A stretch of DNA of 64,000 bases. It comes from Hypericibacter adhaerens (lineage in GTDB: Bacteria > Pseudomonadota > Alphaproteobacteria > Dongiales > Dongiaceae). Below the pieces are notes generated by a model. It was not told the origin of the DNA. It did no database searches and was given only the letters and a program-made list of their open reading frames with translations. Each line of letters starts with the position of its first letter. Within the stretch, counting starts at the first letter, position 1. Shown piece by piece: positions 6,915-54,675 of this stretch. The stretch covers positions 558,001-622,000 of the forward strand of contig NZ_CP042582.1 of assembly GCF_008728835.1 (NCBI RefSeq). The letters are read 5' to 3'. The translations under genes were made by a program, and so were the position numbers.

Positions 6915-7861
<947 letters not shown>

Positions 7862-8028
7862 GTTCGTCTGCTCCCCTGTTTCCTGCGGCGCCGGCCGGGC
7901 CCACTCCCCGATCCGCCGGAACGCCGTCAGCCGCCACCAACTTGTTCCTGCCGCCAAACCGTCACCATGACGAAGCGGCGACTAATACCCCCGGCTGCAA
8001 CCGGCAATGGCGCCTAGGAATATGGCCC

Positions 8029-9171
8029 TTACCGCTTGGCAATCAAGAGATCGGCTGCCGGCAGTGGCGCCGGCGTTGGCGTCGCGCCGCTTTCCTCGAT
8101 CTCCACTTCCTGGATGCGCTCACCGCGCTTCTGGATCTGCTCGGACGATGTGGCGATGTCCTTCAGGTCCTTGCCCACCTGTTCGTGATGCTTCTGCAGG
8201 TTGCTGACGCGCTCGGAGAGGCGGCGCACATCCTCGAGCAGCAGGCCCACGATGCGCTGGATCACATGCGCCTGCTCGCGCATGCGAACGTCGCGCAGCA
8301 CGGCGCGGATCGTGGTCAGGAGCGCCATCAGCGTCGAGGGCGAGGCGATCGAGACCCGCCGCCGCAGGGCTTCCTCGACCAGCGCCGTGAAGCCGCCATG
8401 GAGCTCGGCATAGACCGCCTCGGAGGGCAGGAACATCACCGCCCAGTCGGCGGTCTCGCCCGCGAGGATGTATTTCCCGGCGATGTCGAGCACGTGATTG
8501 CGCACCGCGGTCTGGAAGTCGCGCTGCGCCAGCTTGAGCGCCGCCTCGTCCTTGGCCTCCTTGAGCGCGCGATAGGCCTCGAGCGGGAACTTCGAATCGA
8601 TCGCGATCGGGCCCGGCGGCTGGGGCAGCTTCAGCAGGCAGTCGACCCGCTTGCCGTTGGAGAGCGTCGCCTGGAACTCGAAGCTCGCGGCCGGCATCGC
8701 ATCGCGCACCAAGGCCTCGAGCTGGACCTCGCCGAAGGCGCCGCGCGCCTGCTTGTTCGAGAGGATGTCCTGGAGCCCGACCACCTGGGTCGAGAGTTCG
8801 GTGATGTTCTTCTGCGCGGCGTCGATGACGGCGAGACGCTCCTTGAGCTCGGTCAGGGATTGCTGCGCCTGGGTGGAGGATTCCTGGAGCCGAAGTCCCA
8901 CCCGGTCGCCGAGCTGGGCCAGGCGCTGCTCGACCGTGGCGGCGAGTGCCCGCTCCTGCGTCTGCAGCCCCTCGGCCAGCCGCGCCTGGGCCTCGCTCTG
9001 GGCCCGGGCCATCTGGTCGAAGCGGCCGGTGAGCTCCGCCATCCGGCCGGCATCGGCGCCCGACCGGCGCATCAGGGCGATGCCGAATCCGACCGCCACC
9101 AGGAGCGCGACGAGGGCCAGGAGCGCCACGCCGGTCAGGATCAGGGTGGGGTCGAGCGGCCAGGCAGCCAT
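8029..9171 (-). CDS. rmuC: DNA recombination protein RmuC
   Basis: Predicted 380-residue RmuC homologue: an N-terminal membrane anchor (DPTLILTGVALLALVALLVA), a long coiled coil (about residues 45-130, Gln/Glu/Ala-rich), then the nuclease-like RmuC domain (about 135-350) with GAFGEVQLEALVRDAMPAAS, DCLLKLPQPPGPIAIDSKFP and ADWAVMFLPSEAVYAEL. The I-D-S-K and nearby acidic residues correspond to the PD-(D/E)xK-like core of the family, which limits inversions or suppresses mobile DNA. It stands alone on the minus strand, divergent from def. Confidence 0.93.
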   Translation of the reverse strand: MAAWPLDPTLILTGVALLALVALLVAVGFGIALMRRSGADAGRMAELTGRFDQMARAQSEAQARLAEGLQTQERALAATVEQRLAQLGDRVGLRLQESSTQAQQSLTELKERLAVIDAAQKNITELSTQVVGLQDILSNKQARGAFGEVQLEALVRDAMPAASFEFQATLSNGKRVDCLLKLPQPPGPIAIDSKFPLEAYRALKEAKDEAALKLAQRDFQTAVRNHVLDIAGKYILAGETADWAVMFLPSEAVYAELHGGFTALVEEALRRRVSIASPSTLMALLTTIRAVLRDVRMREQAHVIQRIVGLLLEDVRRLSERVSNLQKHHEQVGKDLKDIATSSEQIQKRGERIQEVEIEESGATPTPAPLPAADLLIAKR

Positions 9172-23649: not shown

Positions 23650-24468
23650 ATGGCCGACGATCGCGAGCCGCCTGACATGACGCCGTCCGCCGGTCCGGCG
23701 CCGGGCGTGCCGACCCATCTCGAGCTGGATGAGCGGGCGCTGGCGCGGATGGAACGCCCCCTCTGGCATCGGGTGGCGGCGCTGGGCGCCGGGCTCCTGC
23801 TGCTGGCGCTCGCCGTCGGTTTCGGTCTCAACCGCTATTTCGACTGGAACACGCTGCAGACGCATCGCGACGAGCTGCGGATGCTGGTCGATTCCTATTG
23901 GTATCTCGTGATCCCGGTTTATCTCCTGCTCTACGCCGTGATCGTGGTGAGCTCGGTGCCGGGCTGCGTGGTGATGACGATCGTCGGCGGGTTCCTGTTC
24001 GGCCAGCTCTGGGGCAGCCTGCTTGCCGCGACCGGGGCCACGCTGGGGGCGACGATCGTTTTCGTCGTGGCGCGGGGCGCGCTCGCTCCCTGGATCCGCC
24101 GTCGCGCCGGCCCCTGGATCCTCAAGATCGAGCGCGGCTTTGCCGAGAATGGCTTGAGCTTCCTCCTGGTGCTGCGGCTGATCCCGATCTTCCCCTTCTT
24201 CATCCTGAACCTGGTGCTGCCCTTCGTCGGGCTGCCGCTGCGCCGCTATGTGCTGGGAACCTTCTTCGGCATCCTGCCGGCCAACTTCATCTATGGCAGC
24301 TTCGGCGCCGGCCTCGGCGCGCTCTTCGACCGCGGCGGCACGGTGACGCTGCGCTCGATCCTGACGCCGGAGATGGTGATGGCGCTCAGCGGGCTGGCGC
24401 TCCTGGCCCTGCTGCCGGTGGCCTACAAGTTCTGGCAGCACCGCCGCCGGTCGCGCAGCCGGGCCTGA
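23650..24468 (+). CDS. TVP38/TMEM64 family membrane protein
   Basis: Predicted 272-residue inner-membrane protein of the DedA/TVP38 (VTT domain) superfamily. Five to six hydrophobic segments include LVIPVYLLLYAVIVVSSVPG, the VTT core VMTIVGGFLFGQLWGSLLAA and TGATLGATIVFVVARG, and RLIPIFPFFILNLVLPFVGL with the conserved R-x-x-P-x-x-P-F. The family is linked to lipid scrambling or small-molecule transport. It lies 11 bp upstream of a flavoprotein disulfide reductase, a frequent pairing in bacteria, which suggests an operon. Confidence 0.9.
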   Translation: MADDREPPDMTPSAGPAPGVPTHLELDERALARMERPLWHRVAALGAGLLLLALAVGFGLNRYFDWNTLQTHRDELRMLVDSYWYLVIPVYLLLYAVIVVSSVPGCVVMTIVGGFLFGQLWGSLLAATGATLGATIVFVVARGALAPWIRRRAGPWILKIERGFAENGLSFLLVLRLIPIFPFFILNLVLPFVGLPLRRYVLGTFFGILPANFIYGSFGAGLGALFDRGGTVTLRSILTPEMVMALSGLALLALLPVAYKFWQHRRRSRSRA

Positions 24469-40230: not shown

Positions 40231-40307
40231 GCGCCCGTAGCTCAACTGGATAGAGCACCAGACTACGAATCTGGGGGTTGGGAGTTCGAGTCTCTCCGGG
40301 CGCGCCA
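40231..40307 (+). tRNA. tRNA-Arg (anticodon ACG)
   Basis: A complete cloverleaf: acceptor arms GCGCCCG (40231-40237) and CGGGCGC (40297-40303), D-arm around AGCTCAACTGGATAGAGC, anticodon stem-loop CCAGA-CTACGAA-TCTGG with anticodon ACG, T-arm GGGAGTTCGAGTCTCTCC region, and encoded CCA at 40305-40307. ACG-tRNA-Arg reads CGN codons after wobble deamination. Its 3' side borders the decayed, compositionally distinct segment that follows. Confidence 0.97.
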
Positions 40308-42987: not shown

Positions 42988-43929
42988 TTAGAGGGTCCGG
43001 AGGTAAGTCTCCCAGCGCCAGTCACGTAAGTGAAACCGTCCGCGCAGGTTGAGCCAGGCGCCGTATTTCGCATAGTCGAAGCGAAGGGTGGAAAGGCGCC
43101 GTTGGACCGAGGTCCATAAGGTCCATTTGATGCAGATCAGAGCCTTGTAGACGGCGATGCGCGCCTTCAGCTCGGGACGGCAGGCGCCGAAATAGGCTTC
43201 GATCAGCTCGTCCTCGATCGCCTCGGGAAAGAACAGCTCGAAGAACCAGATGGCGAGGTCGGCGCAGCGGTCGTTGTTGGAGGCATACTCGAAATCGACG
43301 AGCTTGATCTCCTTCCGGTCGTTGACCATGAAGTCGGTGACGTAGGTATCGTTGATGCAAGGCACGATATCCAAGCCCGCCGCGGTGAGCGCGCGGCGGA
43401 TCCGGCCGTAGTGCCATTGCAGCGCTTCCCAGTCCCGCGGGAGCGCCGCGGCGAGCTCGCCGACCTGCCGGCGATGCTCCTCGATCATGTCGAAATAGGT
43501 CTTGGTCAGGCTCAGCGCCGGCCCCTGATGGAGCTGCTTCAGGGCGGCCAGGGAATTCATGCGGACATCGCGATCCCGGAAATCGATGCTGTTGCAGCTC
43601 CGGTATCCGGCCAGATACTCGAACACCTCGACGCCGCTGTCCTCCAGATAGTGGAGGACGCGCGGGCCCACGCCGACCAGCGCCGCCTTGAGGTTGGCGT
43701 CATGCGCGGCCTTGCGGTCGATGAACATCTCCGTTCCCGTTCCGGGCACCTTCAGGAACAGCAGCTCGTTGCCGGGCTCGCGGCGAATCCGCCAGTTCGC
43801 GTTGGTGATGCCGGCGGCGATGCGCTCATAGGCGAGATCCTGCCCCTGCAGCTCGGGGATCCGGCGCAACGCGGTCTCGACGGCCGCCTCGTCCGCGGTG
43901 GAGGCCTGGCCCAGCCGTTTCTCGGGCAT
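42988..43929 (-). CDS. Choline/ethanolamine kinase-like phosphotransferase, atypical active site
   Basis: Predicted 313-residue protein of the aminoglycoside phosphotransferase/choline kinase fold. ITNANWRI and LLFLKVPGTGTEMFIDRKAA fit the ATP-binding N-lobe of LicA/choline kinases, and VDFEYASNNDRCADLAIWFF fits the Mg-binding DFE region (Asp212). The catalytic loop is unusual: the HxDxxxxN motif reads INDTYVTD (192-199), so catalytic Asp194 is kept but His is Ile and the metal-binding Asn is Asp199. ATG 43929 has GGAGG seven bases upstream and sits one base after the stop of the upstream paralogous kinase. Confidence 0.85.
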   Translation of the reverse strand: MPEKRLGQASTADEAAVETALRRIPELQGQDLAYERIAAGITNANWRIRREPGNELLFLKVPGTGTEMFIDRKAAHDANLKAALVGVGPRVLHYLEDSGVEVFEYLAGYRSCNSIDFRDRDVRMNSLAALKQLHQGPALSLTKTYFDMIEEHRRQVGELAAALPRDWEALQWHYGRIRRALTAAGLDIVPCINDTYVTDFMVNDRKEIKLVDFEYASNNDRCADLAIWFFELFFPEAIEDELIEAYFGACRPELKARIAVYKALICIKWTLWTSVQRRLSTLRFDYAKYGAWLNLRGRFHLRDWRWETYLRTL

Positions 43930-43930
43930 C

Positions 43931-44890
43931 TCAGAGCCTCCGCAGCATCTCGTCCACCGGCCAGGTGCGCAGGTGATAGCGGCATCGCAGCAGCCGGAAC
44001 TCGCCATATTTCAGGAACTCGACGTGACGGCGCGGCGAGGATTGCGCGGCGATCAAGGCCAGCCGGGCCCATAGCATGTCGTCGAGGATCATGTGCAGCT
44101 TGACCCGGTTCGCCAGCTTCCGGTCGAAGCTCCCGCGATAGATCTCGATCGCTTCTTCGATGCCGTCGTCCCACGGCTCGATATCGAGCAGCGCGGCGGC
44201 GAGGTCGTAGAGCGGATCGTTGTTGGCCGCGAAGTCGAAATCGACGAGGAGGAGGGCGTCGTTCGGCCCCAGCAGAACATTGGAGCTGTGGCCGTCCCCA
44301 TGGCACGGCCGCAGCTCGTATCCCGATGCGGCGAAGGCGGCGGCGATGCGATCGGCATAATCGACGAACGTGCGGTGATCGTCGGGCCAGATCGTGCCGA
44401 GACGATCGCCCAGCGCGGTCAGCTCCTGAAGATGGCTGAAGATCGTGCGGTGACGGGGAAACGGGCGGCCGTCGTGAAGCCGCTTCTTCAGCCCGATCAG
44501 GGCCTCTCGGCGCGGCCCCCGCGGCAGCTCGTCCATATAGGCGCCGCGCCAGCCCTCTCCGAGCCAGGTCAGCGCGATGGCGCCGCTGGTCTCGTCGTAG
44601 GCGATGGCGGCCGGCGTCACGCCGATGGCGGCGGCGGCCTCGATGGCGCCATGCGCGGCGGCGGGGTCCAGGAAGGGCGCCATGTCGGGGCTCGGCACCT
44701 TCAGGAAGGCCTGCGTCTCCCCGGCTTCCACCAGCCAGCAATCATGGTCGACGGCCGAGAACATCGGCACGGCGATCGTTGCGGCAGCGGGATGCAGGCC
44801 GATCGCGCCGCCGCCCCAGCAGGCCATCCGCCGGGCCGCCGCCTCGGCGCGCTCGCGCGGGGAAGCCGGTCCGGTAGCTTCGATGGCCAT
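43931..44890 (-). CDS. Choline/ethanolamine kinase-like phosphotransferase, canonical active site
   Basis: Predicted 319-residue kinase of the same fold as the next gene but only distantly similar. The catalytic loop is canonical, CHGDGHSSNVLL with His197, Asp199 and Asn204, and the Mg-binding Asp217 lies in LLVDFDFAANNDPLYDLAAA. Such enzymes phosphorylate choline, ethanolamine, homoserine or other small hydroxyl/amino-alcohol substrates. It follows the amidase by 16 bp and is translationally coupled (one-base gap) to the downstream atypical kinase, placing both in the amidase operon. Confidence 0.85.
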   Translation of the reverse strand: MAIEATGPASPRERAEAAARRMACWGGGAIGLHPAAATIAVPMFSAVDHDCWLVEAGETQAFLKVPSPDMAPFLDPAAAHGAIEAAAAIGVTPAAIAYDETSGAIALTWLGEGWRGAYMDELPRGPRREALIGLKKRLHDGRPFPRHRTIFSHLQELTALGDRLGTIWPDDHRTFVDYADRIAAAFAASGYELRPCHGDGHSSNVLLGPNDALLLVDFDFAANNDPLYDLAAALLDIEPWDDGIEEAIEIYRGSFDRKLANRVKLHMILDDMLWARLALIAAQSSPRRHVEFLKYGEFRLLRCRYHLRTWPVDEMLRRL

Positions 44891-44906
44891 CGACAGGGCG
44901 CCCCTG

Positions 44907-46364
44907 TCAGAGAACCGGCAGGTCCGCCCGCAACCCGCGGAGCGTCTCGAAGGCGGCGGCCAGCCGCAGCAAGGCGTGGTCGGCAAATCGCTGCCCGACG
45001 ATCTGCAGGCCGATCGGCAGCCCGTCCCGGTCGAAGCCGCAGGGAACGGACAGCGCCGGCTGCTGCGTCTGGTTGTAGGTGGCGGTGAAGAGAAGATGGG
45101 ACCAGGCGCGCTCCCGGTCCGGGAAGGCGAGATCGGCGGCGTAGGCCGTCATCGGCATGACGGGGGACAGCACGAAATCGAAGCCGGCGAAAGCGTCGTT
45201 GACCTGCACCCGCAGCCGGTCGAGGCCGTTCATGGCCTCGAGCAGCTCCGCGGCGGAGAGACCCTTGGCGGCCTCGCACCAGCTCCGCACGTCGGGATGG
45301 GCCTCTGCCTGGAGATCGGCCGGCAGGTGCTGCAGCTCCGAGAGCACGCGCGCCCTGAAATAGGTCTCCACCGCCCCCTCAGGATCCTCAGTGAACAGGG
45401 CAGGCAGGGGTTCCACCGTCGCCCCCTGGGCCGCCAGCAACAGGGCCGCCTGCTCGATCGCCGCGCGGGTCTCGGGGCCGGCGGGCGTGCCGGCGCCCAG
45501 ATCCAGCAGCAGGCCGATGCGCGCCCCGCGGATCACCGCCTCCGGTTCTGCCGGGGGCGGGGCGGGGGGTGCCGGAAAAGGCAGCGACAGGCAGTCTCGC
45601 CGGTCGGGCTGCGACAGGACCGCGGTCAGCAGCACGGCGTCGGCCACGGAGCGGGCGAGGGGGCCGGCCGATCGCATGCTGCTGGCGGGAAGGTGGGGAA
45701 TCCGGCCCTGGGTCGGCTTGAGCCCGACGAGGCCGCAGAAAGCGGCGGGGATGCGAACCGATCCGCCGAGATCGGTGCCGATCGTCAGGGGACCGAGGCC
45801 GGCGGCAACGGCGGCCGCGCCGCCCGACGTCGACCCGCCCGGCGTGCGGGCGAGGTTCCAGGGGTTGCGCGCCGTCCCGTGCTGGCTGCTGAGGCCCGAC
45901 GCCAGGCAGCCGAGATCGGGCATCGTGGTCTTGCCGAGGAGGATGGCGCCCGCTTCCCGCAGCCGGGCCGCCGGCGGCGCATCGACCGATGACGGCGCCG
46001 CCGGCGCATAGGCCTTGCTGCCGCGATACATCGGCAACCCGGCCACGGCGATGCTGTCCTTGATCGAGACCGGCACGCCGTCGAGCGGGCCTACCGGCGC
46101 GCCGCGCATCCAGCGGGCCTCCGACGCGTAGGCGGCCGTCATGGCGCCCTCATGCTCGACCCGATAGAAGGCCAGGAGTCGAGGATTGAGACGGTGGATC
46201 CGGTCGAGGATGGCCGCCGTGACATCGACCGGCGAAAGCCGGCGCGCCTTGTAGGCCGCGATCAGCTCGGTCGCGGTCAGGCGGCACAATTCGTCGGTTT
46301 TGCCTTTGGCAGGCTCACCCGCAGGCGGCGCGCCGGCCATCGATGATGAGCTGCCCCGTGTCAT
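44907..46364 (-). CDS. Amidase-signature family amidase
   Basis: Predicted 485-residue amidase signature enzyme with the complete catalytic triad: Lys102 (GVPVSIKDSIAVAG), cis-Ser178 (TPGGSTSGG) and nucleophile Ser202 (IGTDLGGSVRIPA). It hydrolyses a carboxamide or aryl/alkyl amide; the substrate is not predictable, and GatA is unlikely in the absence of GatC/GatB. First gene of a three-gene operon with two phosphotransferases. An 18-bp motif at 46401-46418, shared with the ABC-importer promoter region, lies about 37 bp upstream of its ATG, so LuxR control is inferred. Confidence 0.92.
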   Translation of the reverse strand: MTRGSSSSMAGAPPAGEPAKGKTDELCRLTATELIAAYKARRLSPVDVTAAILDRIHRLNPRLLAFYRVEHEGAMTAAYASEARWMRGAPVGPLDGVPVSIKDSIAVAGLPMYRGSKAYAPAAPSSVDAPPAARLREAGAILLGKTTMPDLGCLASGLSSQHGTARNPWNLARTPGGSTSGGAAAVAAGLGPLTIGTDLGGSVRIPAAFCGLVGLKPTQGRIPHLPASSMRSAGPLARSVADAVLLTAVLSQPDRRDCLSLPFPAPPAPPPAEPEAVIRGARIGLLLDLGAGTPAGPETRAAIEQAALLLAAQGATVEPLPALFTEDPEGAVETYFRARVLSELQHLPADLQAEAHPDVRSWCEAAKGLSAAELLEAMNGLDRLRVQVNDAFAGFDFVLSPVMPMTAYAADLAFPDRERAWSHLLFTATYNQTQQPALSVPCGFDRDGLPIGLQIVGQRFADHALLRLAAAFETLRGLRADLPVL

Positions 46365-46400
46365 GGCCCGACCTTAGGTCGGTGCCGGCGGCGCGCGACA

Positions 46401-46418
46401 GCTAGCAAAATCGTTAGG
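46401..46418. promoter_or_regulatory. Candidate LuxR-type operator upstream of the amidase operon
   Basis: GCTAGCAAAATCGTTAGG, read on the minus strand as CCTAACGATTTTGCTAGC. It matches 14 of 18 positions of the site at 47383-47400, in the same orientation relative to its downstream operon. It lies between the luxR stop and the amidase start, about 37 bp before that start. The length and partial dyad resemble a lux-type box; no binding evidence exists. Confidence 0.5.
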
Positions 46419-46453
46419 TGAGATTCCGCCCGGCCCCGCGGGCGAAGCGGATG

Positions 46454-47221
46454 TCAGATGCCGTCGATCAACTGGCGCTGGACGGCGAGGGACACGGCGT
46501 GCGTGCGGTTCCGTGCGCCCAGCTTGCGCGTGGCGTTCTGCAGATGGAGGGTCGCGGTGCCGATGGAACGGCCGAGCCTCGCCGCGATCTGCTTGGCCGA
46601 GTAACCCTGCGCGCTCAGCCTCAGGCACTCGACCTCGCGCCGGGTCAGGCGCACCGGCGCCGGAGAGCCTGTGGCCGGGCGCAGCTTCGGCATGGCGAAA
46701 TTGTGGAACATGTAGGCCGCCAGGCCGATCTCGCTCAGATGCTGCTCGAGGTCGCGGTGGAAGTGCCGCTCCGGATCGACATGGATGCCGGTGAAGGTCG
46801 CGAGCGAGCCGTTTCCATAGCGGATCGGCACGGTGACGCCGACCGTCAGGCGGGTGTCGTGCAGGTATTGCGCGACGGGGCGCGCCCGGTCGTCCATGAT
46901 GGGCGTGAGCGATGATCGCGCGTTCTCGAAATAGGACCAGGTGAACGGCACCGTCCGGGAATTGGCGACCCGCATGACCGGGTCGATCTGGTAGTAGCCG
47001 GCGTTGCGCCACAGATCGATCATGCTGTCCGGGGCGTTGCGCGTCACCAGAAGGACGGGCGTGACGATCTCCCGGTCCTTCGTCAACGGCACCGGGGCGT
47101 AGTCGTAGTTGACGCTGCTGAGGCCGAAGCGGGAGAGGGCGCCGACCATGACGTCCAGCCCGGCATCGATGCCGGCCGCCCCGTTCAATCCCTCTTCGAG
47201 AGCGAGGAACCAGTCTTCCAT
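46454..47221 (-). CDS. LuxR-type regulator, plant-associated LuxR-solo subgroup (OryR/PipR-like)
   Basis: Predicted 255-residue regulator with an N-terminal autoinducer-binding domain (about 15-165) and a C-terminal LuxR helix-turn-helix (LTRREVECLRLSAQGYSAKQ, residues about 185-250). By spacing from the invariant Asp80-Pro81 (TraR D70-P71) and Trp95 (W85), the positions of TraR W57 and Y61 are Met67 and Trp71. That W57M/Y61W pair is the hallmark of the OryR/XccR/PsoR/NesR/PipR group, which responds to plant compounds instead of acyl-homoserine lactones. No luxI is present in the window. It lies between an amidase/kinase operon and a peptide ABC importer. Confidence 0.88.
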   Translation of the reverse strand: MEDWFLALEEGLNGAAGIDAGLDVMVGALSRFGLSSVNYDYAPVPLTKDREIVTPVLLVTRNAPDSMIDLWRNAGYYQIDPVMRVANSRTVPFTWSYFENARSSLTPIMDDRARPVAQYLHDTRLTVGVTVPIRYGNGSLATFTGIHVDPERHFHRDLEQHLSEIGLAAYMFHNFAMPKLRPATGSPAPVRLTRREVECLRLSAQGYSAKQIAARLGRSIGTATLHLQNATRKLGARNRTHAVSLAVQRQLIDGI

Positions 47222-47382
47222 CGCAAAAGTCTAGCCCATCATCTCGGGCAGTCAACGTCCCGGGCCGTCAATGTCTTGGGCGGAGGAGAGGCGGGGCTGT
47301 CTCCGGCTGAACCGGTTATGCCGATCCCGTCCGGACCTTGGGCGCGTCTGACGCGATCGGCGGCCGGCGATGGCCCCCACAG

Positions 47383-47400
47383 CCTAGGAGTTTTGCTAGC
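47383..47400. promoter_or_regulatory. Candidate LuxR-type operator upstream of the ABC importer operon
   Basis: CCTAGGAGTTTTGCTAGC, about 140 bp before the substrate-binding-protein start. It carries CTAG at both ends (CTAG-N8-CTAG) and is extended by TAGG, giving a partial dyad CCTAG...CTAGG over 47383-47404. It matches 14 of 18 bases of the site upstream of the amidase operon. The remaining 300 bp between luxR and the importer show nothing else I recognise. Confidence 0.5.
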
Positions 47401-47540
47401 TAGGCCCGCCGTCGAGGGCGACGGTACCTTCCGCAGACTACGCATCGGCTCCCCGGGAGGGGGAGCGGGCCGCGATGCCGGCGCCTTCGATCGGGAAGGA
47501 TGCGCAAGTCGTTGCAACCCAGCCATCGGAGAACTGGCAA

Positions 47541-49226
47541 ATGAAACCGAACAGATGGAAGGCGTCACAGCTGGCGGCCGCTTGCGTGATCGCCGGCCTG
47601 GCCTCCGCCGCGACGATCGGCGGCGACGTCCGGGCCGACGACATGACCGCGCACAGGGGCGGGACGTTGCGCCTGGTGGCCCGCTCGGCGGCGGGCACCC
47701 TCGACCCCCACGTCAACTACACCCTGCAATATTGGCAGTTGTTCCAGCCCCTCTATGACGGGCTGCTCGCCTTCAAGAAGGTTGCCGGCCCCGACAGCTT
47801 CACCATCGTGCCGGACATCGCCGAAGCCATTCCGGAGGCCCAGGACGGCGGCAAGACCTATGTCTTCAAGATCCGGCCGGGCATCAAGTTCTCCAATGGG
47901 CAGGAAGTCGGCGTGAAGGACGTGGTCGCCTCCTATCAGCGCATCTTCAAGGTGGCCGGGCCGACCGCCGGCACCTTCTATTCCGTGCTGGTGGGCGCCG
48001 ACGCCTGCCTGAAGTCGCCGGCGGATTGCACCCTGGAAGGCGGTGTCGTGGGCGACGAGGCGGCGCGCACCGTCACCTTCCACCTGACGCGCCCCGACGC
48101 CGAGTTCTTCAACAAGCTCGCCATTCCGCATGCGGCGATCCTCCCGGCCGACACGCCGGGCAGCGATGCCGGCACGACGCCCATTCCCGGCACCGGCCCC
48201 TATCACATCGTCTCCTACGATCCGAACCAGCAGATGAAGCTGGCGCGCAATCCCAACTTCAAGGAATGGAGCAAGGACGCCCAGCCGGACGGCTATGCGG
48301 ACGAGATCGTCTATGATTTCGGCCTGACGGAGCAGGCGGAGGTGAATGCCGTTCAGAACGGCCAGGCCGACTGGATGTTCGACCAGCCGCCGCCCGACCG
48401 CTTGAGCGAGCTGGGCACGAAATATGCCGACCGCGTCCATATCACCCCGCTCACCGCGATGTGGTACGTGCCGATGAACACGAACCTGCCGCCCTTCAAC
48501 AACGAGAAGGCGCGACAGGCGGTCAACTACGCCATCGACAGGAAGGCCCTGGTGAAGCTGTTCGGCGGCCCCAACCTTGCGACGCCGACCTGCCAGCTTC
48601 TGCCGCCCAACTTCCCGGGCCATGAAGACTACTGCCCCTACACGCTCAATCCCGGCAAGACCTGGTCGGCACCGGACCTGGAGAAAGCCCGGAAGCTGGT
48701 CGCGGAATCGGGGACGGCAGGACAGGAGATCACGATCATCGCCGAGGACACGACGATCTCGCGCAGCATCGGCGCCTATCTGCAGAGCGTGCTGAACGAT
48801 CTCGGCTACGTCGCCAGCGTCAAGGCCATCTCGCCCGACATCCAGTTCACCTACATCCAGAACACCAACAACAAGGTGCAGATGAGCATCTCGCAGTGGT
48901 ACCAGGATTATCCGTCAGGCTCGGATTTCCTCTACACCCTGCTGAGCTGCGACTCGTTCCATCCGGGATCGGATGCCTCGGTCAACATCTCAGGCTTCTG
49001 CGATCCCGCGATCGACGCCGAGATGAAGAAGGCCATGGACCTGCAGATCACCGATCTCAAGGCCGCCAACGCCAAGTGGGCCGAGATCGACCGCATGGTG
49101 GTCGACAAGGCCCCGGTCGCGGTGCTGTTCACGCCGAAGCATCTCGACTTCGTCTCGCAGAGGGTTGGCGACTTCAGTTTCAGCCTGCAATACTACTTCT
49201 TGTTCGCCAACGCCTGGGTTCAGTAG
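47541..49226 (+). CDS. Peptide-type ABC importer, substrate-binding protein (SBP family 5)
   Basis: Predicted 561-residue periplasmic binding protein of the DppA/OppA/NikA class. Signal peptide WKASQLAAACVIAGLASAAT with a cleavage region near VRADD. The mature protein shows GGTLRLVARSAAGTLDPHVN, YVFKIRPGIKFSNGQEVGVK DVVASYQRIF and RQAVNYAIDRKALVKLFGG, all typical of SBP_bac_5. Start at ATG 47541 with GGAGAA upstream. It heads a five-gene importer operon and would determine the imported ligand: a peptide, opine or amide-like compound are the usual choices. The candidate LuxR site lies upstream. Confidence 0.93.
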   Translation: MKPNRWKASQLAAACVIAGLASAATIGGDVRADDMTAHRGGTLRLVARSAAGTLDPHVNYTLQYWQLFQPLYDGLLAFKKVAGPDSFTIVPDIAEAIPEAQDGGKTYVFKIRPGIKFSNGQEVGVKDVVASYQRIFKVAGPTAGTFYSVLVGADACLKSPADCTLEGGVVGDEAARTVTFHLTRPDAEFFNKLAIPHAAILPADTPGSDAGTTPIPGTGPYHIVSYDPNQQMKLARNPNFKEWSKDAQPDGYADEIVYDFGLTEQAEVNAVQNGQADWMFDQPPPDRLSELGTKYADRVHITPLTAMWYVPMNTNLPPFNNEKARQAVNYAIDRKALVKLFGGPNLATPTCQLLPPNFPGHEDYCPYTLNPGKTWSAPDLEKARKLVAESGTAGQEITIIAEDTTISRSIGAYLQSVLNDLGYVASVKAISPDIQFTYIQNTNNKVQMSISQWYQDYPSGSDFLYTLLSCDSFHPGSDASVNISGFCDPAIDAEMKKAMDLQITDLKAANAKWAEIDRMVVDKAPVAVLFTPKHLDFVSQRVGDFSFSLQYYFLFANAWVQ

Positions 49227-49301: not shown

Positions 49302-50351
49302 ATGACAGCGAACCTCTTTCCGGCCGCGCCATCGTCGGAGCGGGCGGCCGGATCCGTGGGGACGGTGCGGGCACCCGGGCCATGGCGCGTTGCCATGGCC
49401 CGTCTCGCGCGAAATCCGTCCGCCTGGGCCGCGTCGGCGCTGCTGCTGGCGATCGTGTCGCTGTGCCTGATGGCTCCGCTCTATGTCGAGCATGTGACCG
49501 GCGTCGATCCCTTCCAGTCGAACATCGAGGGGACCGTCGCGATCGACGGTCAGGTAAGGAACCTTCTGGAGCCGAATACCGAGGGGCTCGGGATCGGCTC
49601 GACGCCGATCGGCCCGACCTGGAATCCCGCCCTCTATTTCCTCGGCGCCGACGCCCAGGGCCGCGATGTCGCCGGGCGGCTGCTCTACGGCGGCCGCAAT
49701 TCGCTGCTGATCGGCGCGGCGGCGACGGTCATCACCCTGGCGCTCGCCTGCTTCGTCGGCATCGCCGCGGGCTATTTCGGCGGCGTGACCGACACGATCA
49801 TTTCGCGCGGCCTCGACGTGCTCTGGGCCTTCCCGGTCTATCTCCTGGCCATATCGCTGTCGATCGTGCTCCTCAGCGGCGGATTCGAGATCGGGCCGTT
49901 TACCTTGACGGCCGGCAGCCTCTGGCTGCCGATCTGGATCGTCGGCATCGTCTACGTGCCCTACGTGGCCAGGCCCATCCGCGGCCGTGTCCTCACGCTG
50001 CGCGAAAGCGAGTTCGTCCTCGCCTCGATCTGCCTCGGCGTGCCGCCGCATCGCATCCTGCTGCGCGACATCCTTCCCAATGTCGCGACCACGGTGATCG
50101 TCTTCGCGCCCCTGATGATGGCGCTCAGCGTGCTTGCGGAATCGGCACTGTCGTTCCTCTCCATCGGCGTGCAGCCGCCGGAGGCGAGCTGGGGCACGAT
50201 CATCCAGGACGGGCTGGAGCTCCTCTACAGCCGGCCGACCGTGGTGCTGGCGCCCGGCGTGGCGCTGGGGCTGACGGTGCTGGCGCTCAATGTCCTGGGC
50301 GAGGCCCTGCGCGAGGCGATCGACCCCCGCGCCAAGCTCAGGGTCGCGTGA
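49302..50351 (+). CDS. Peptide-type ABC importer, permease (DppC type)
   Basis: Predicted 349-residue inner-membrane permease with an N-terminal helix (AASALLLAIVSLCLMAPLYV), the FLGADAQGRDVAGRLLYGGR segment found before the transmembrane core of DppC/OppC, and the EAA-like loop (LASICLGVPPHRILLRDILP) that contacts the ATPases. The extended periplasmic stretch (about 50-100) is longer than in DppC of enterobacteria. Second gene of the importer operon, separated from the next permease by three bases. Confidence 0.93.
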   Translation: MTANLFPAAPSSERAAGSVGTVRAPGPWRVAMARLARNPSAWAASALLLAIVSLCLMAPLYVEHVTGVDPFQSNIEGTVAIDGQVRNLLEPNTEGLGIGSTPIGPTWNPALYFLGADAQGRDVAGRLLYGGRNSLLIGAAATVITLALACFVGIAAGYFGGVTDTIISRGLDVLWAFPVYLLAISLSIVLLSGGFEIGPFTLTAGSLWLPIWIVGIVYVPYVARPIRGRVLTLRESEFVLASICLGVPPHRILLRDILPNVATTVIVFAPLMMALSVLAESALSFLSIGVQPPEASWGTIIQDGLELLYSRPTVVLAPGVALGLTVLALNVLGEALREAIDPRAKLRVA

Positions 50352-50354
50352 GCG

Positions 50355-51326
50355 ATGCTGACGCTGCTCCTGCGACGCGTCGCCCAGATGCTCTTCGTGA
50401 TGTTCGGCATCAGCGTGCTGTCCTTCCTGATCTTCTTCGCCACGCCCGGGTCGGATCCGGCGGCGCGCATCGCCGGACGCAATGCCGCGCCTGAGACGCT
50501 GGCCGAGGTGCGCAAGGATTTCGGCCTCGATCGGCCGCTCTACATCCAGTACGCGCTGATGATGAAGCGGCTGTTTGTCACCCGCGACCTCACCTCGTTC
50601 GTCAATCGCGGCCACAAGGTGATCCCCCAGATCGTCGACGCGACGCCGGTGACGCTGTCGCTCGTGTTCGCCGCGGCCGTGTTCTGGATCGTCGGCGGCG
50701 TCTCGATCGGCGTGCTGTCCGCCGCGTTCAAGGGCAGCCTTCTCGATGCCCTGCTGATGGGTTTCTGTCTCCTCTGCATCTCGATGCCCGTCTATTGGCT
50801 GGGCGAGGTCCTCAACCTTGTCACCCAGAGCCGGATGCATGACAGCTGGCTCTTTTCCTGGGTGCCGCCCCTGGGATATGTCGCGCTGACCGCGGATCCC
50901 TGGGGATGGTTCAAGGCGCTGGTCATCCCCGCGCTGACCCTGTCGGCGCTCTATGTCGGCCTCTATGGCCGGGTCCTGCGGGCCGCCATCATCGAATCGA
51001 ACCAGGAGGACTTCATCCGCACCGCGCACGCGAAAGGCCTGAGCGCGACGCGGGTCATGCTCCATCACTCGCTGCGGGTCTCGCTGGTCGGCATCGTCAC
51101 CATGTTCGGGCTCGACTTCGGCGCGCTGGTCGGCGGCGCCGCGCTCCTGACCGAGGTGGTGTTCGGCCTGCACGGCATCGGCAAGCTGACCTATGACAGC
51201 CTTCGCACGCTCGATCTGCCGGTCATCATGGCCACCGTGCTTTACGCCTCGTTCTTCGTCGTTGCCGCCAATTTCATCGTAGACGTCATCTATGCAGCCA
51301 TCGACCCTCGCGTCCGCCTCGACTGA
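50355..51326 (+). CDS. Peptide-type ABC importer, permease (DppB type)
   Basis: Predicted 323-residue permease. It has the N-terminal helix LRRVAQMLFVMFGISVLSFL with FATPGSDPAARIAG (DppB-family beginning), about six membrane segments, and the EAA loop FIRTAHAKGLSATRVMLHHS. It pairs with the DppC-type permease. Its coding end overlaps the first ATPase gene by 35 bases, indicating tight translational coupling. Confidence 0.93.
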   Translation: MLTLLLRRVAQMLFVMFGISVLSFLIFFATPGSDPAARIAGRNAAPETLAEVRKDFGLDRPLYIQYALMMKRLFVTRDLTSFVNRGHKVIPQIVDATPVTLSLVFAAAVFWIVGGVSIGVLSAAFKGSLLDALLMGFCLLCISMPVYWLGEVLNLVTQSRMHDSWLFSWVPPLGYVALTADPWGWFKALVIPALTLSALYVGLYGRVLRAAIIESNQEDFIRTAHAKGLSATRVMLHHSLRVSLVGIVTMFGLDFGALVGGAALLTEVVFGLHGIGKLTYDSLRTLDLPVIMATVLYASFFVVAANFIVDVIYAAIDPRVRLD

Positions 51327-52344
51327 CGCCGGTGCGGGAGCCCTGCTCGAGGTCCGGGACCTGAGCATCTCCTTCCGGACCGGGCGCGGCCTGGCCCGCG
51401 TGGTCGACGGCGTCTCGTTCGCCATCGCGCCGCGGGAGATCGTCGGATTGATCGGCGAATCCGGGTCCGGCAAGACCATGACCCTGATGAGCCTGATCGG
51501 GCTGATCGACGATCCGAACGTCGTCATCGAGGGATCGATCAGGTTCAAGGGCCGTGAGCTCGTCGGCGCGGGGAAACCGGTGCTGCGGGCGATGCGCGGC
51601 AACGAAATGTCCATCGTCTTCCAGGATCCGATGACCGCCCTGACGCCGGTGCTGAAGATCGGCGGGCAGATCGAGGAGCAGATCCGGGCGCATGAGCCGA
51701 TCGGCCGGAAGGCCGCGCGCCGGCGGGCCATAGACCTGCTCGCCGCGGTGGGCATCGCCGATCCCGCCGCGGCGGCCGAGCGTTATCCCCATCAGCTGTC
51801 GGGCGGCATGCGGCAGCGGGTGTGCATCGCGATGGCGCTGTCCTGCCGGCCCTCGCTTCTGCTGGCCGACGAGCCGACGACGGCGCTCGACGTGACGGTG
51901 CAGGCGCAGATCCTCGACCTCATCCGGCATCTTCGAACGGAGTTCGGGTCGTCGATCATCTTCGTCTCGCACGATCTGGGCGTGGTCGCCGAGGTGGCGG
52001 ACCGCATCGTGGTCATGTATGGCGGCACCATCGTGGAGAGCGGCACGACCGAGGAGCTGTTCGTCCGGCCGCTGCATCCCTACAGCCGGGCCCTCAAGGC
52101 GTCGATCCCGCCGCTCTCGGGCGAGCGGCCGAAGCGTCTCTGGTCGATCCCCGGGGCCCCGCCGTCGCCGCTGCTGGCGCCCATGCCGGGCTGCGCTTTC
52201 GCGCCGCGCTGCCAGCATCGTTTCGAGGCCTGCGGCGCCCGCCCACGGCTGTCGGGCGTGGCGGCGCACCTCGCCGCCTGCCATCTCGTGGCCGGCGGGC
52301 GGCAGGCCGTTGACGGGGCCGACATGCCGGAAGGGCGCCCGTGA
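51292..52344 (+). CDS. Peptide-type ABC importer, ATP-binding protein (DppD type)
   Basis: Predicted 350-residue ATPase. Walker A GLIGESGSGKTMTLMSLIGL, Q-loop VFQDPMTALTP, signature LSGGMRQRVCIAMAL, Walker B LLLADEPTTALDVT, H-loop FVSHDLGVVAEV, and the C-terminal oligopeptide-transporter domain with a cysteine-containing iron-sulfur-like motif (PGCAFAPRCQHRFEACGARP, later ACH). The start overlaps the permease gene by 35 bases; there is no better start after its stop. Stop TGA overlaps the next gene's ATG. Confidence 0.94.
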   Translation: MQPSTLASASTDAGAGALLEVRDLSISFRTGRGLARVVDGVSFAIAPREIVGLIGESGSGKTMTLMSLIGLIDDPNVVIEGSIRFKGRELVGAGKPVLRAMRGNEMSIVFQDPMTALTPVLKIGGQIEEQIRAHEPIGRKAARRRAIDLLAAVGIADPAAAAERYPHQLSGGMRQRVCIAMALSCRPSLLLADEPTTALDVTVQAQILDLIRHLRTEFGSSIIFVSHDLGVVAEVADRIVVMYGGTIVESGTTEELFVRPLHPYSRALKASIPPLSGERPKRLWSIPGAPPSPLLAPMPGCAFAPRCQHRFEACGARPRLSGVAAHLAACHLVAGGRQAVDGADMPEGRP

Positions 52345-53360
52345 TGCCGCCGCTTCGGCAAGATCCGCCCTTGGTGGAGGCGATCGACGTGCGCAAGGAG
52401 TTCGCGGTCGGCCGCCACTCCTGGCGCAGCCCGCGACGGCAGAAAGTCACCGCCGTGGCCGGCGTCACGCTGTCGATCTCGGCGGGCGAAACGCTCTCGC
52501 TGGTGGGCGAAAGCGGTTGCGGCAAGTCGACACTGGCCCGCTGCCTGGTTCGTCTCCACGACATCACGGCCGGGCGGATCCTGATCGACGGCGTCGATAT
52601 CGCCGGCCTGTCGCGGCGCCGGATGCAAGGCGTGCGCCGGCGCATCCAGATGGTGTTCCAGGATCCCGGCGCGTCGCTCAATCCGCGCCGGCGCATCGGC
52701 GATCTCATCGCCGAGCCGCTGCGGATCCATTTCAAGGCCGCCCCCGCGCAGATCGAGGCGCGCGTGGCCGAGCTCATGGAGCAGGTCGGCCTCTCGGCGC
52801 ATCAGCGCGACCGCTTTCCGCACGAGCTCTCCGGCGGGCAGCGGCAGCGCGCCAGCATCGCGCGGGCCTTGGCCGTGCGGCCCGCCGTGATCGTGGCGGA
52901 CGAGCCGGTCTCCGCCCTCGACGTCTCGGTGCGGGCGCAGATCATCAACCTCCTCGCCGAGCTTCAGGAAACGCTGGGCCTGGCCTACATCTTCATTTCC
53001 CACGATCTGTCCGTCGTTCGCCAGGTGTCGCACCGGGTGGCCGTCATGTATCTCGGCTCGATCGTGGAGACGGGAACGACCGGCCAGCTCTACGAGGCGC
53101 CGGCGCATCCCTACACGCAGGCCCTGCTTTCCGCCGTGCCGGTGCCGGCCTACGGCGCTCGCCGCGAGCGGATCGTGCTGAAGGGCGACGTCCCCAGCCC
53201 CATGAATCCGCCGCAGGGATGCGGGTTCCATCCGCGCTGCCGCCATGCGACCCGGCTTTGCCGCGAGGTTCGTCCGGCGCTCGAGACCTTGCCGGACGGC
53301 CGGAACGTCGCATGCCACCACCCTCTGCCGCCGCCGTTGCGGGCTGAGGCAAGTCATTGA
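52344..53360 (+). CDS. Peptide-type ABC importer, ATP-binding protein (DppF type)
   Basis: Predicted 338-residue ATPase, last component of the importer. Walker A SLVGESGCGKSTLARCLVRL, Q-loop VFQDPGASLNPRRRIGDLI, signature LSGGQRQRASIARAL, Walker B VIVADEPVSALDVS, H-loop FISHDLSVVRQV, and the C-terminal Cys-containing segment GCGFHPRCRHATRLC. The ATG at 52344 shares a base with the previous TGA; a GTG one codon earlier is an alternative. With both ATPases intact the importer appears complete. Confidence 0.94.
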   Translation: MPPLRQDPPLVEAIDVRKEFAVGRHSWRSPRRQKVTAVAGVTLSISAGETLSLVGESGCGKSTLARCLVRLHDITAGRILIDGVDIAGLSRRRMQGVRRRIQMVFQDPGASLNPRRRIGDLIAEPLRIHFKAAPAQIEARVAELMEQVGLSAHQRDRFPHELSGGQRQRASIARALAVRPAVIVADEPVSALDVSVRAQIINLLAELQETLGLAYIFISHDLSVVRQVSHRVAVMYLGSIVETGTTGQLYEAPAHPYTQALLSAVPVPAYGARRERIVLKGDVPSPMNPPQGCGFHPRCRHATRLCREVRPALETLPDGRNVACHHPLPPPLRAEASH

Positions 53361-53718: not shown

Positions 53719-54675
53719 ATGCCGCGCGTCGCGATCGTCGTTCATCCCCTGGCCCCGCTGCGTGCCGACAGCTACTGGCTGCGCGCGCTCGCGGAATGCT
53801 GGATCGAGAGCGGCATCCGCGTCGGCGTGGTCAGCGATCCCAAGGCCCGCATCAAGGCCGATCTCGCGATCCTGCATGTCGACCTCACGGTGGTGCCCCG
53901 GGACTATCTCGCCTGCGTCCGGCGCTGCGCTGTGACCGTCAACGGCGCGGTCGCCGACATCTCCAAACGGGTGATCAGCACGCATCTGTTGCGCCGTCAG
54001 GATCGCTATGAGGGTCTGGTCATCGTCAAGACCAACCGGAACTGCGCGGGGCTTCCCGAGGTGCGCGTGGCCAACAATGGCTGGAAGAAGCATCAGCGCG
54101 GCGCCAGCGACCAGGAGGCCCGCGATTACTACAACAACGAGCTGGAACTCCACATCGCGCGCCGGGACCGATACGGTTCCGAGCAGGGCTTCGGCGACTA
54201 TCGCGTCTTCGATTCGATATCCGAGGTTCCCGACGCGGTCTGGAGCGACAGCGAGCTGGTGGTGGAGCGCTTCCTGCCCGAGAGGAGCAAGGGCTTCTAC
54301 TGCATCCGCACCTGGCTGTTCTTCGGCGACCAGGATCGCCATGCGATGTTCTACTCCCACGATCCGGTCATCAAATCGCACAACGTCGTCGATTTCGAAC
54401 GGCTGTCCGAGGTTCCCGACGAGCTGCGGCAGATCCGCCGCAAGCTGAAGTTCGATTTCGGCAAGTTCGACTACACGATGGTGGATGGTCGCCCGGTCCT
54501 GTTCGATGCCAACCGCACGCCCACGATCGGGGACTTCCCGAAGGAACGCTATCTTCCCATGGCCCAGTCGCTGGCCAGCGGCATCGGCGCCTTCCTGAAG
54601 AATCCTCCCGCGCTCGAGCCACGGCCGCCGGCCTCGCCGGTACCGGCAGGCGAAGGCGGAGCGGAGGACGCATGA
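53719..54675 (+). CDS. ATP-grasp-like protein of unknown specificity
   Basis: Predicted 318-residue cytosolic protein. The C-terminal region carries an ATP-grasp-type active-site block: KFDFGKFDYTMVDGRPVLFD followed by ANRTPTIGDF (metal-binding Asp/Asn pattern), with VVERFLPER and a basic FYCIRTWLFFGDQDRH stretch upstream. The N-terminus (MPRVAIVVHPLAPLRADSYW) resembles a pre-ATP-grasp Rossmann-like domain. ATP-grasp enzymes join a carboxylate to an amine or thiol; substrate unknown. Its stop overlaps the next methyltransferase start (ATGA), so they form an operon. Confidence 0.7.
   Translation: MPRVAIVVHPLAPLRADSYWLRALAECWIESGIRVGVVSDPKARIKADLAILHVDLTVVPRDYLACVRRCAVTVNGAVADISKRVISTHLLRRQDRYEGLVIVKTNRNCAGLPEVRVANNGWKKHQRGASDQEARDYYNNELELHIARRDRYGSEQGFGDYRVFDSISEVPDAVWSDSELVVERFLPERSKGFYCIRTWLFFGDQDRHAMFYSHDPVIKSHNVVDFERLSEVPDELRQIRRKLKFDFGKFDYTMVDGRPVLFDANRTPTIGDFPKERYLPMAQSLASGIGAFLKNPPALEPRPPASPVPAGEGGAEDA

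Follow-up and report, generated by a model that had tools for sequence, protein, structure and literature searches.

Which genes does a LuxR-type regulator serve when it is encoded between an Opp/Dpp-type importer operon on one side and an operon for an amidase and two kinase-like proteins on the other? This arrangement is found in Hypericibacter adhaerens, in a stretch of 64 kb that we call the window. A preliminary description had pointed to two similar 18-bp sequences there, one in front of each operon, and had proposed that they join both operons into one regulon. The features of the locus are as follows.

42988..43938, minus strand: kinase-like protein 2, choline/ethanolamine-kinase group (Pfam)
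43931..44917, minus strand: kinase-like protein 1, APH/choline-kinase group (Pfam)
44907..46364, minus strand: amidase-signature enzyme (PF01425; NF005450 above cut-off), standing where related loci have pip
46371..46376, minus strand: -10-like element TAAGGT, 24 nt past the amidase-side box, with the amidase ATG 6 nt further
46401..46418, minus strand: lux-type box CCTAACGATTTTGCTAGC, 18 bp, preceding the amidase/kinase operon, in the gap that separates the luxR stop from the amidase start
46454..47221, minus strand: LuxR-type regulator (PF03472 and PF00196), M57 W61 D70 P71 in TraR numbering
47228..47255, minus strand: probable luxR promoter, TTGACT-16-TAGACT, read by eye
47383..47400, plus strand: lux-type box CCTAGGAGTTTTGCTAGC, 18 bp, preceding the importer operon
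47425..47430, plus strand: -10-like element TACCTT, 24 nt past the importer-side box
47541..49226, plus strand: SBP_bac_5 substrate-binding protein (Pfam), of what we call the type A importer
49302..51326, plus strand: two Opp/Dpp-type permeases (49302-50351 and 50355-51326; Pfam)
51292..53360, plus strand: two Opp/Dpp-type ATPases (51292-52344 and 52341-53360; Pfam)

Both sequences lie on the strands and at the positions listed above, as the preliminary description had it, and its count of 14 identical positions out of 18 was reproduced by eye (positions 1-4 and 9-18). The lux-type geometry and the partial dyad claimed for them were likewise found: both boxes fit CT-N12-AG, named as the typical lux-box pattern in the available text of PMC4338825, and 5 of 8 pairs match within each. 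A pattern joining the two sites returned zero further places in the 64 kb with up to three mismatches, in keeping with the claim that the window holds no other copy. A CTAG...TTTTGC look-alike near the luxR start (47222-47240, minus strand) was rejected by eye as a third box, because the probable luxR promoter lies there and the stretch is better read as its -10 element.

Could two AT-rich intergenic stretches resemble each other by chance? The joint pattern would leave room for this, being derived from the two boxes themselves and so circular: at least two matches with up to three mismatches occurred in 9 of 100 shuffles of the window. Since this loose pattern is unconvincing alone, we used an independent weight matrix, trained on 11 sites close to luxR genes of the same kind at seven other loci; the window locus and its sister-species counterpart were left out, and one training site belonged to the luxR paralogue in this genome (L039). 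The matrix ranked the boxes first and second in the 64 kb, at 23.2 bits and, on the amidase side, 20.1 bits, the third match being one of 15.8 bits at 24422, within a 272-aa open reading frame. Across 200 dinucleotide shuffles of the window the mean best score was 12.8 bits, with one shuffle at 23.0, and scores of at least 20.05 bits arose at a rate of 0.005 per 64 kb. Strong copies were also rare elsewhere in the 5.87-Mb genome, where the preliminary description had advised looking for them. A consensus fitted to both boxes gave 60 matches there with up to two mismatches, against 344 for the reversed control, and 5 of these 60, a list limited by the pattern and not a whole-genome matrix scan, reached at least 16 bits. 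Three of the five belong to the window luxR and its paralogue; the other two fall within predicted open reading frames of 543 aa and 130 aa (the latter a doubtful gene). Exact matches to the fitted consensus numbered two, both of them the window boxes, and one of the two matches with a single mismatch lies directly 3′ of the luxR paralogue. The first pattern run genome-wide, with up to two mismatches, gave 3 matches against 24 for its reversed control, namely both boxes and one site directly 3′ of the paralogous luxR (host genome, contig C1, 1928390-1929127). A symmetric 16-base pattern with one mismatch gave 9 rows against 20, three at luxR loci and six elsewhere, the amidase-side box being absent from the nine. 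Set against the independent matrix, this genome-wide rarity and the conservation in other genera of the phylum described below, chance resemblance has a negligible probability.

The boxes share their architecture with sites at related loci. The consensus over 30 distinct sites is approximately CCTATMANTTNTGATAGC, with arms CTATCA and TGATAG around 4 bases; CT-N12-AG is present in 26 of the 30, and the dyad averages 5.00 of 8 pairs compared with 2.26 after shuffling (maximum 3.07). Position 7 of the amidase-side box is G, where 27 of the 30 sites have A. Downstream, a TAnnnT hexamer begins at an offset of 22, 23 or 24 nt past the box in 24 of 33 sites (a set from which L057, L058 and L097-L104 are excluded), and 12 sites share the best single offset, against no more than 4 when the bases past the box were shuffled 2000 times. 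LuxR-type activators contact polymerase at the -35 position, and the fixed distance from box to TAnnnT suggests that the box abuts the predicted place of a -35 element. On the amidase side, the TAAGGT element is so close to the ATG that transcription would start at the ATG itself, and the amidase/kinase mRNA may therefore be leaderless. Box and fixed -10 distance together offer a means of finding further targets of such regulators in bacteria from Rhizobium to Rahnella.

What kind of regulator would use such sites? Both an autoinducer-binding and a GerE domain were found by Pfam in the window LuxR, and the alignment, counted back from the DP pair, shows M and W in place of TraR W57 and Y61, with D70 and P71 kept. 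According to the accessible portions of PMC10134790 and PMC3821632, W57M and Y61W are the substitutions of the LuxR solos of plant-associated bacteria (PAB; OryR/PipR/NesR). Over 32 aligned rows, residues 57/61 are M/W in 25, F/W in L038-L041, W/W in PipR-like L098 and L104, and W/Y in L042. In the LuxR tree, the window and sister-species proteins group with those of L034, L036, L037 and L048 (support 96/97), the joining of L037 to the window pair being a possible long-branch effect according to the tree program's warning. The window LuxR thereby falls among proteins of pip-linked loci, PipR-like L098 included, in a tree built without OryR, NesR and PipR themselves and with a single long-branched LuxR as outgroup. 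L034, L036 and L048 also have the window's importer subtype; L100 does likewise, yet its LuxR groups elsewhere in the tree. The designation as a LuxR "solo" in the preliminary description agrees with the neighbourhood, where no LuxI was found among the 10 proteins scanned; for the genome as a whole the term is provisional, as the LuxI search that gave no match there gave none in the control genomes either. Judged by residues and domains, the window LuxR is a relative of the PAB LuxR solos, and because the window has no pip we file it as a variant rather than a standard member.

If the boxes serve this regulator, they should accompany it elsewhere, and orthologous loci had indeed been named in the preliminary description as the place to look. 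We examined 28 loci having luxR, pip or amidase, and importer genes in one stretch (tblastn; the importer of L038 is clear by its substrate-binding protein). In every one of the 28, a site scoring 16 bits or more lies no more than 400 bp from luxR, and the same holds for 20 of 20 once the seven training loci and L041, whose site is identical to a training one, are dropped. Such sites lie on both sides of luxR in 21 of the 28 loci and on one side only in seven; the pip and importer genes of L039-L041 are on one strand, so that one box may be enough there. TIGR01250, the pip model, scored above cut-off in all three neighbour proteins scanned. The loci span further genera of the same family and two more families of its class, together with Oceanicella, Aureimonas, numerous Rhizobiaceae, Rahnella and additional genomes of the phylum. 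They were drawn from 11 of the 155 plasmid records matched by LuxR and 9 of 13 other genomes (G491, G581, G625 and G655 left out); the LuxR homologue search covers the same 17 genomes at the family and order levels, the related-locus search amounts to one locus, and two weak LuxR matches of G005 (30-32%) lie outside the survey. As many of the rhizobial loci are near copies and the loci were a selection, the counts do not represent independent events, and the spread over several families is the stronger argument.

The survey also bears on the possibility that the boxes are recognized by a different regulator or a sigma factor and not by the window LuxR, a notion encouraged by their lying at what we take to be the -35 region. 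Boxes of this kind were not found where the regulator or its targets are missing. Three PAB-type luxR genes without pip or importer (L037, L096 and L103, the latter two near kin) have no site of at least 16 bits, their best scores being 5.9, 6.6 and 10.4 bits. Conversely, no match of at least 16 bits was present at L105, L107, L108 and L109, where pip and/or a type A importer operon occur with no PAB luxR, nor at the second pip/importer operon of the sister species (L119). A further locus without a PAB luxR, L106, has matches of 16.9 and 16.1 bits, one within pip and one far from the importer start, so that pip or importer operons lacking a PAB luxR have no box in front. All 22 control loci with other GerE genes were also without a box (maximum 13.9 bits). 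The available text on the PipR system adds that the site is required for PipR-dependent activation. We thus regard recognition by another factor as very improbable. The matrix is not exclusive to PAB-type LuxR proteins, since a CTG-N10-CAG site at L042, beside a more distant LuxR with W57/Y61, reaches 17.7 bits. Directly 3′ of the luxR of that locus, at L042:9453-9470, the sequence CCTGTCAGATCTGACAGT resembles a textbook lux box. As a separate observation, L037, L096 and L103 encode M57/W61 LuxR proteins with no pip relative and, apart from a weak ATPase match, no Opp/Dpp-importer relatives, and so also break the rule that such regulators adjoin pip.

The PipR/AapABCDEF system of Pseudomonas sp. 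GM79 offers a direct comparison. As set out in the accessible part of PMC4981722, a LuxR-type regulator there is likewise flanked by a hydrolase gene and a peptide-type ABC importer, with a predicted regulator site before each flanking operon, at -71.5 for pipA and -91.5 for aapA. When CT was changed to TA in the pipA site, PipR-dependent transcription was abolished, and mutation of the ABC transporter abolished induction, so that the importer is needed for the response; the effect of PipR on the aapA, or importer, side was small. Among our loci, L098 encodes a substrate-binding protein nearly identical in alignment to AapF (PDB 7kz8; 1008.7 bits), and the matrix places the centres of its boxes at -72.5 relative to the start codon of pipA and -93.5 relative to the assumed aapA start. 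Its boxes are therefore within 1 and 2 bp of the published PipR sites, as far as that text gives them, a match by position and not by letters. The window differs in having an amidase and two kinase-like proteins where the PipR system has a proline iminopeptidase, and its LuxR has M at position 57, where PipR-like L098 has W. NesR, OryR and XccR share W57M/Y61W and the domain layout with the window LuxR, and the portions of PMC10134790, PMC7301841 and PMC3909224 available to us report boxes before the neighbouring pip gene, which the window lacks. The putative pip box given for Kosakonia PsrR in the available text of PMC7301841 is, by eye, unlike our consensus, whereas the site on the importer side of L052, the locus of the enterobacterial Rahnella, reaches 22.2 bits; the published box may mark the wrong stretch.

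Given the identity, position and conservation of the boxes and their co-occurrence with the regulator, as brought out by these comparisons, both sites are very probably operators of the LuxR-type regulator encoded between them, which would bind them and so jointly activate the importer and the amidase/kinase operon. Conservation of the motif at orthologous loci and the rarity of strong copies elsewhere in the genome, the two sequence-based checks named in the preliminary description, both favour its proposal, and comparison with the PipR system makes one regulon for both operons the preferred reading. An imported small molecule would bind the regulator, whose dimer would sit on each box next to the -35 region and recruit RNA polymerase to the -10 element, which lies some 24 nt further on. 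This would turn on the plus-strand importer together with the minus-strand operon of amidase and two kinases, in a feed-forward loop like that proposed for PipR, with the usual proline iminopeptidase exchanged in this genus for amidase and kinases under the same kind of promoter.

That exchange is where the locus departs from its relatives. An adjacent, regulated pip is called universal in the subfamily in the accessible text of PMC10134790, PMC7301841 and PMC3909224, and what is available of the subfamily papers gives its mode of action as unknown. No pip was found in the window by tblastn with two pip queries (best weak match E 0.017), and the pip model matches the genome at three places, all outside the window, which rules out that a pip was merely overlooked. 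Two of these three genes lie beside the luxR paralogue and one has neither luxR nor box nearby. In the host-genome stretch L118 (G000), a pip gene alone was seen, at 7812-8687. The paralogue locus encodes an AapF-like protein (E 6e-158 for L041 of the sister species, to which that of L039 is 92.7% identical), so that the cell seems to hold one standard and one altered circuit. Among the 28 loci, an amidase and kinases at luxR occur only in the window and the sister species, that is, in this genus. The luxR-pip-type A importer loci of G005:C20 (L036), Oceanicella (L034) and Aureimonas AU20 (L048) make up, with L037, the closest luxR set; their substrate-binding proteins are 63-68% identical to that of the window, and they have pip, with no amidase or kinases found there. 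Since the same-family relative L036 combines luxR, pip, the same importer subtype and both boxes, replacement of pip by the amidase and kinases in this genus would be the simplest history. What is new, as read from these gene contents, is the swap of pip for an amidase and two choline/ethanolamine-kinase-like proteins, with sensor, importer and both predicted operators kept. No locus combining a LuxR solo with an amidase is described in the available text of the open-access literature searched.

An exchange of this kind invites the question of whether the amidase-side box still works. It could be a relic of the lost pip promoter, with only the importer box functional and the amidase/kinase operon read from elsewhere: the amidase and kinases are confined to 2 of the 28 loci, so the box could predate them, and it is the weaker of the two. 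Comparison with the sister species (L035) makes this improbable. There, the amidase-side box is 18/18 identical, and 1 of the next 30 bases differs, against 8 of the 20 preceding bases, which would hardly be expected of a relic. The importer-side box is 17/18 identical, with differences at 3 of the next 30 and 11 of the preceding 20 bases.

What might the exchanged enzymes do? Over residues 36-476 the amidase has a match in a solved fatty acid amide hydrolase; its family is broad, and GatA gives a higher score. Among solved proteins, those closest to kinase 2 are choline/ethanolamine kinases. The catalytic loop of kinase 2, CINDTYVTDFMV, has Asp in the host and the sister species (L035) where 7 of 7 other homologues have Asn, which we take to be a metal ligand, and its activity is possibly altered or lost. 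Matches to kinase 2 occur in 85 plasmid records. The four inspected (L110-L113) all pair homologous kinases with a Zn hydrolase and an annotated DeoR-type regulator, and three of them, from Rhizobium, Agrobacterium and Acidisoma (L110, L112 and L113), add Opp/Dpp-type importer genes; in the fourth, from Pseudomonas oryzihabitans (L111), an amidase-family gene lies upstream instead of the importer. These cassettes resemble the window in setting a kinase pair beside an amide- or peptide-hydrolase, and differ from it in that no LuxR is annotated and no site of 16 bits was found. In G280 and G322 the kinase pair adjoins an M20-family hydrolase, with importer genes in the same stretch. By its gene neighbours, the kinase-pair module thus reads as import, then amide or peptide hydrolysis, then phosphorylation; in the window its predicted control lies instead with a regulator of the plant-signal type. 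Cassettes of a homologous kinase pair with a Zn or M20 hydrolase were seen overall in L110-L113, L093, L094 and L095, mostly with Opp/Dpp importer genes. Separately, a tRNA-Arg gene lies at 40231-40307 of the window, some 2.7 kb past where the kinase operon ends, and may be an integration spot.

These enzymes raise the thought that a plant-signal circuit has been re-targeted, with the amidase and two kinases breaking down and phosphorylating the very signal that is imported, which would be an ethanolamine amide (HEHEAA, for example) or a related N-acyl-ethanolamine. HEHEAA, the ligand of PipR, derives from ethanolamine, and its name marks it as an amide, according to the accessible text of PMC10134790 and PMC7301841. 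That PipR answers to HEHEAA makes a shared ethanolamine-amide theme attractive, and the Asp in place of the conserved Asn of kinase 2 calls for caution on an ethanolamine-kinase role; we consider the idea tentative and rather doubtful. If true, the signal would also be food, and pip would not be an essential output of such circuits. A circuit that kept its sensor, importer and predicted operators while pip was exchanged suggests that the conserved core is to import and process the signal, and the exchange of pip for amidase and kinases offers a natural experiment on the role of pip.

The importer, for its part, is of a different subtype from the AapF-like one, its substrate-binding protein being 25.4% identical to the AapF-like query. 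A 318-aa open reading frame with no Pfam match follows directly past the importer, at 53719-54675 of the window. The sister species (G014) has a second type A importer and pip operon, without luxR or box, at L119:1676-8461. Near the luxR-pip locus of G005, a RiPP-modification enzyme of the MbnB/TglH/ChrH family is encoded at L036:11465-12295.
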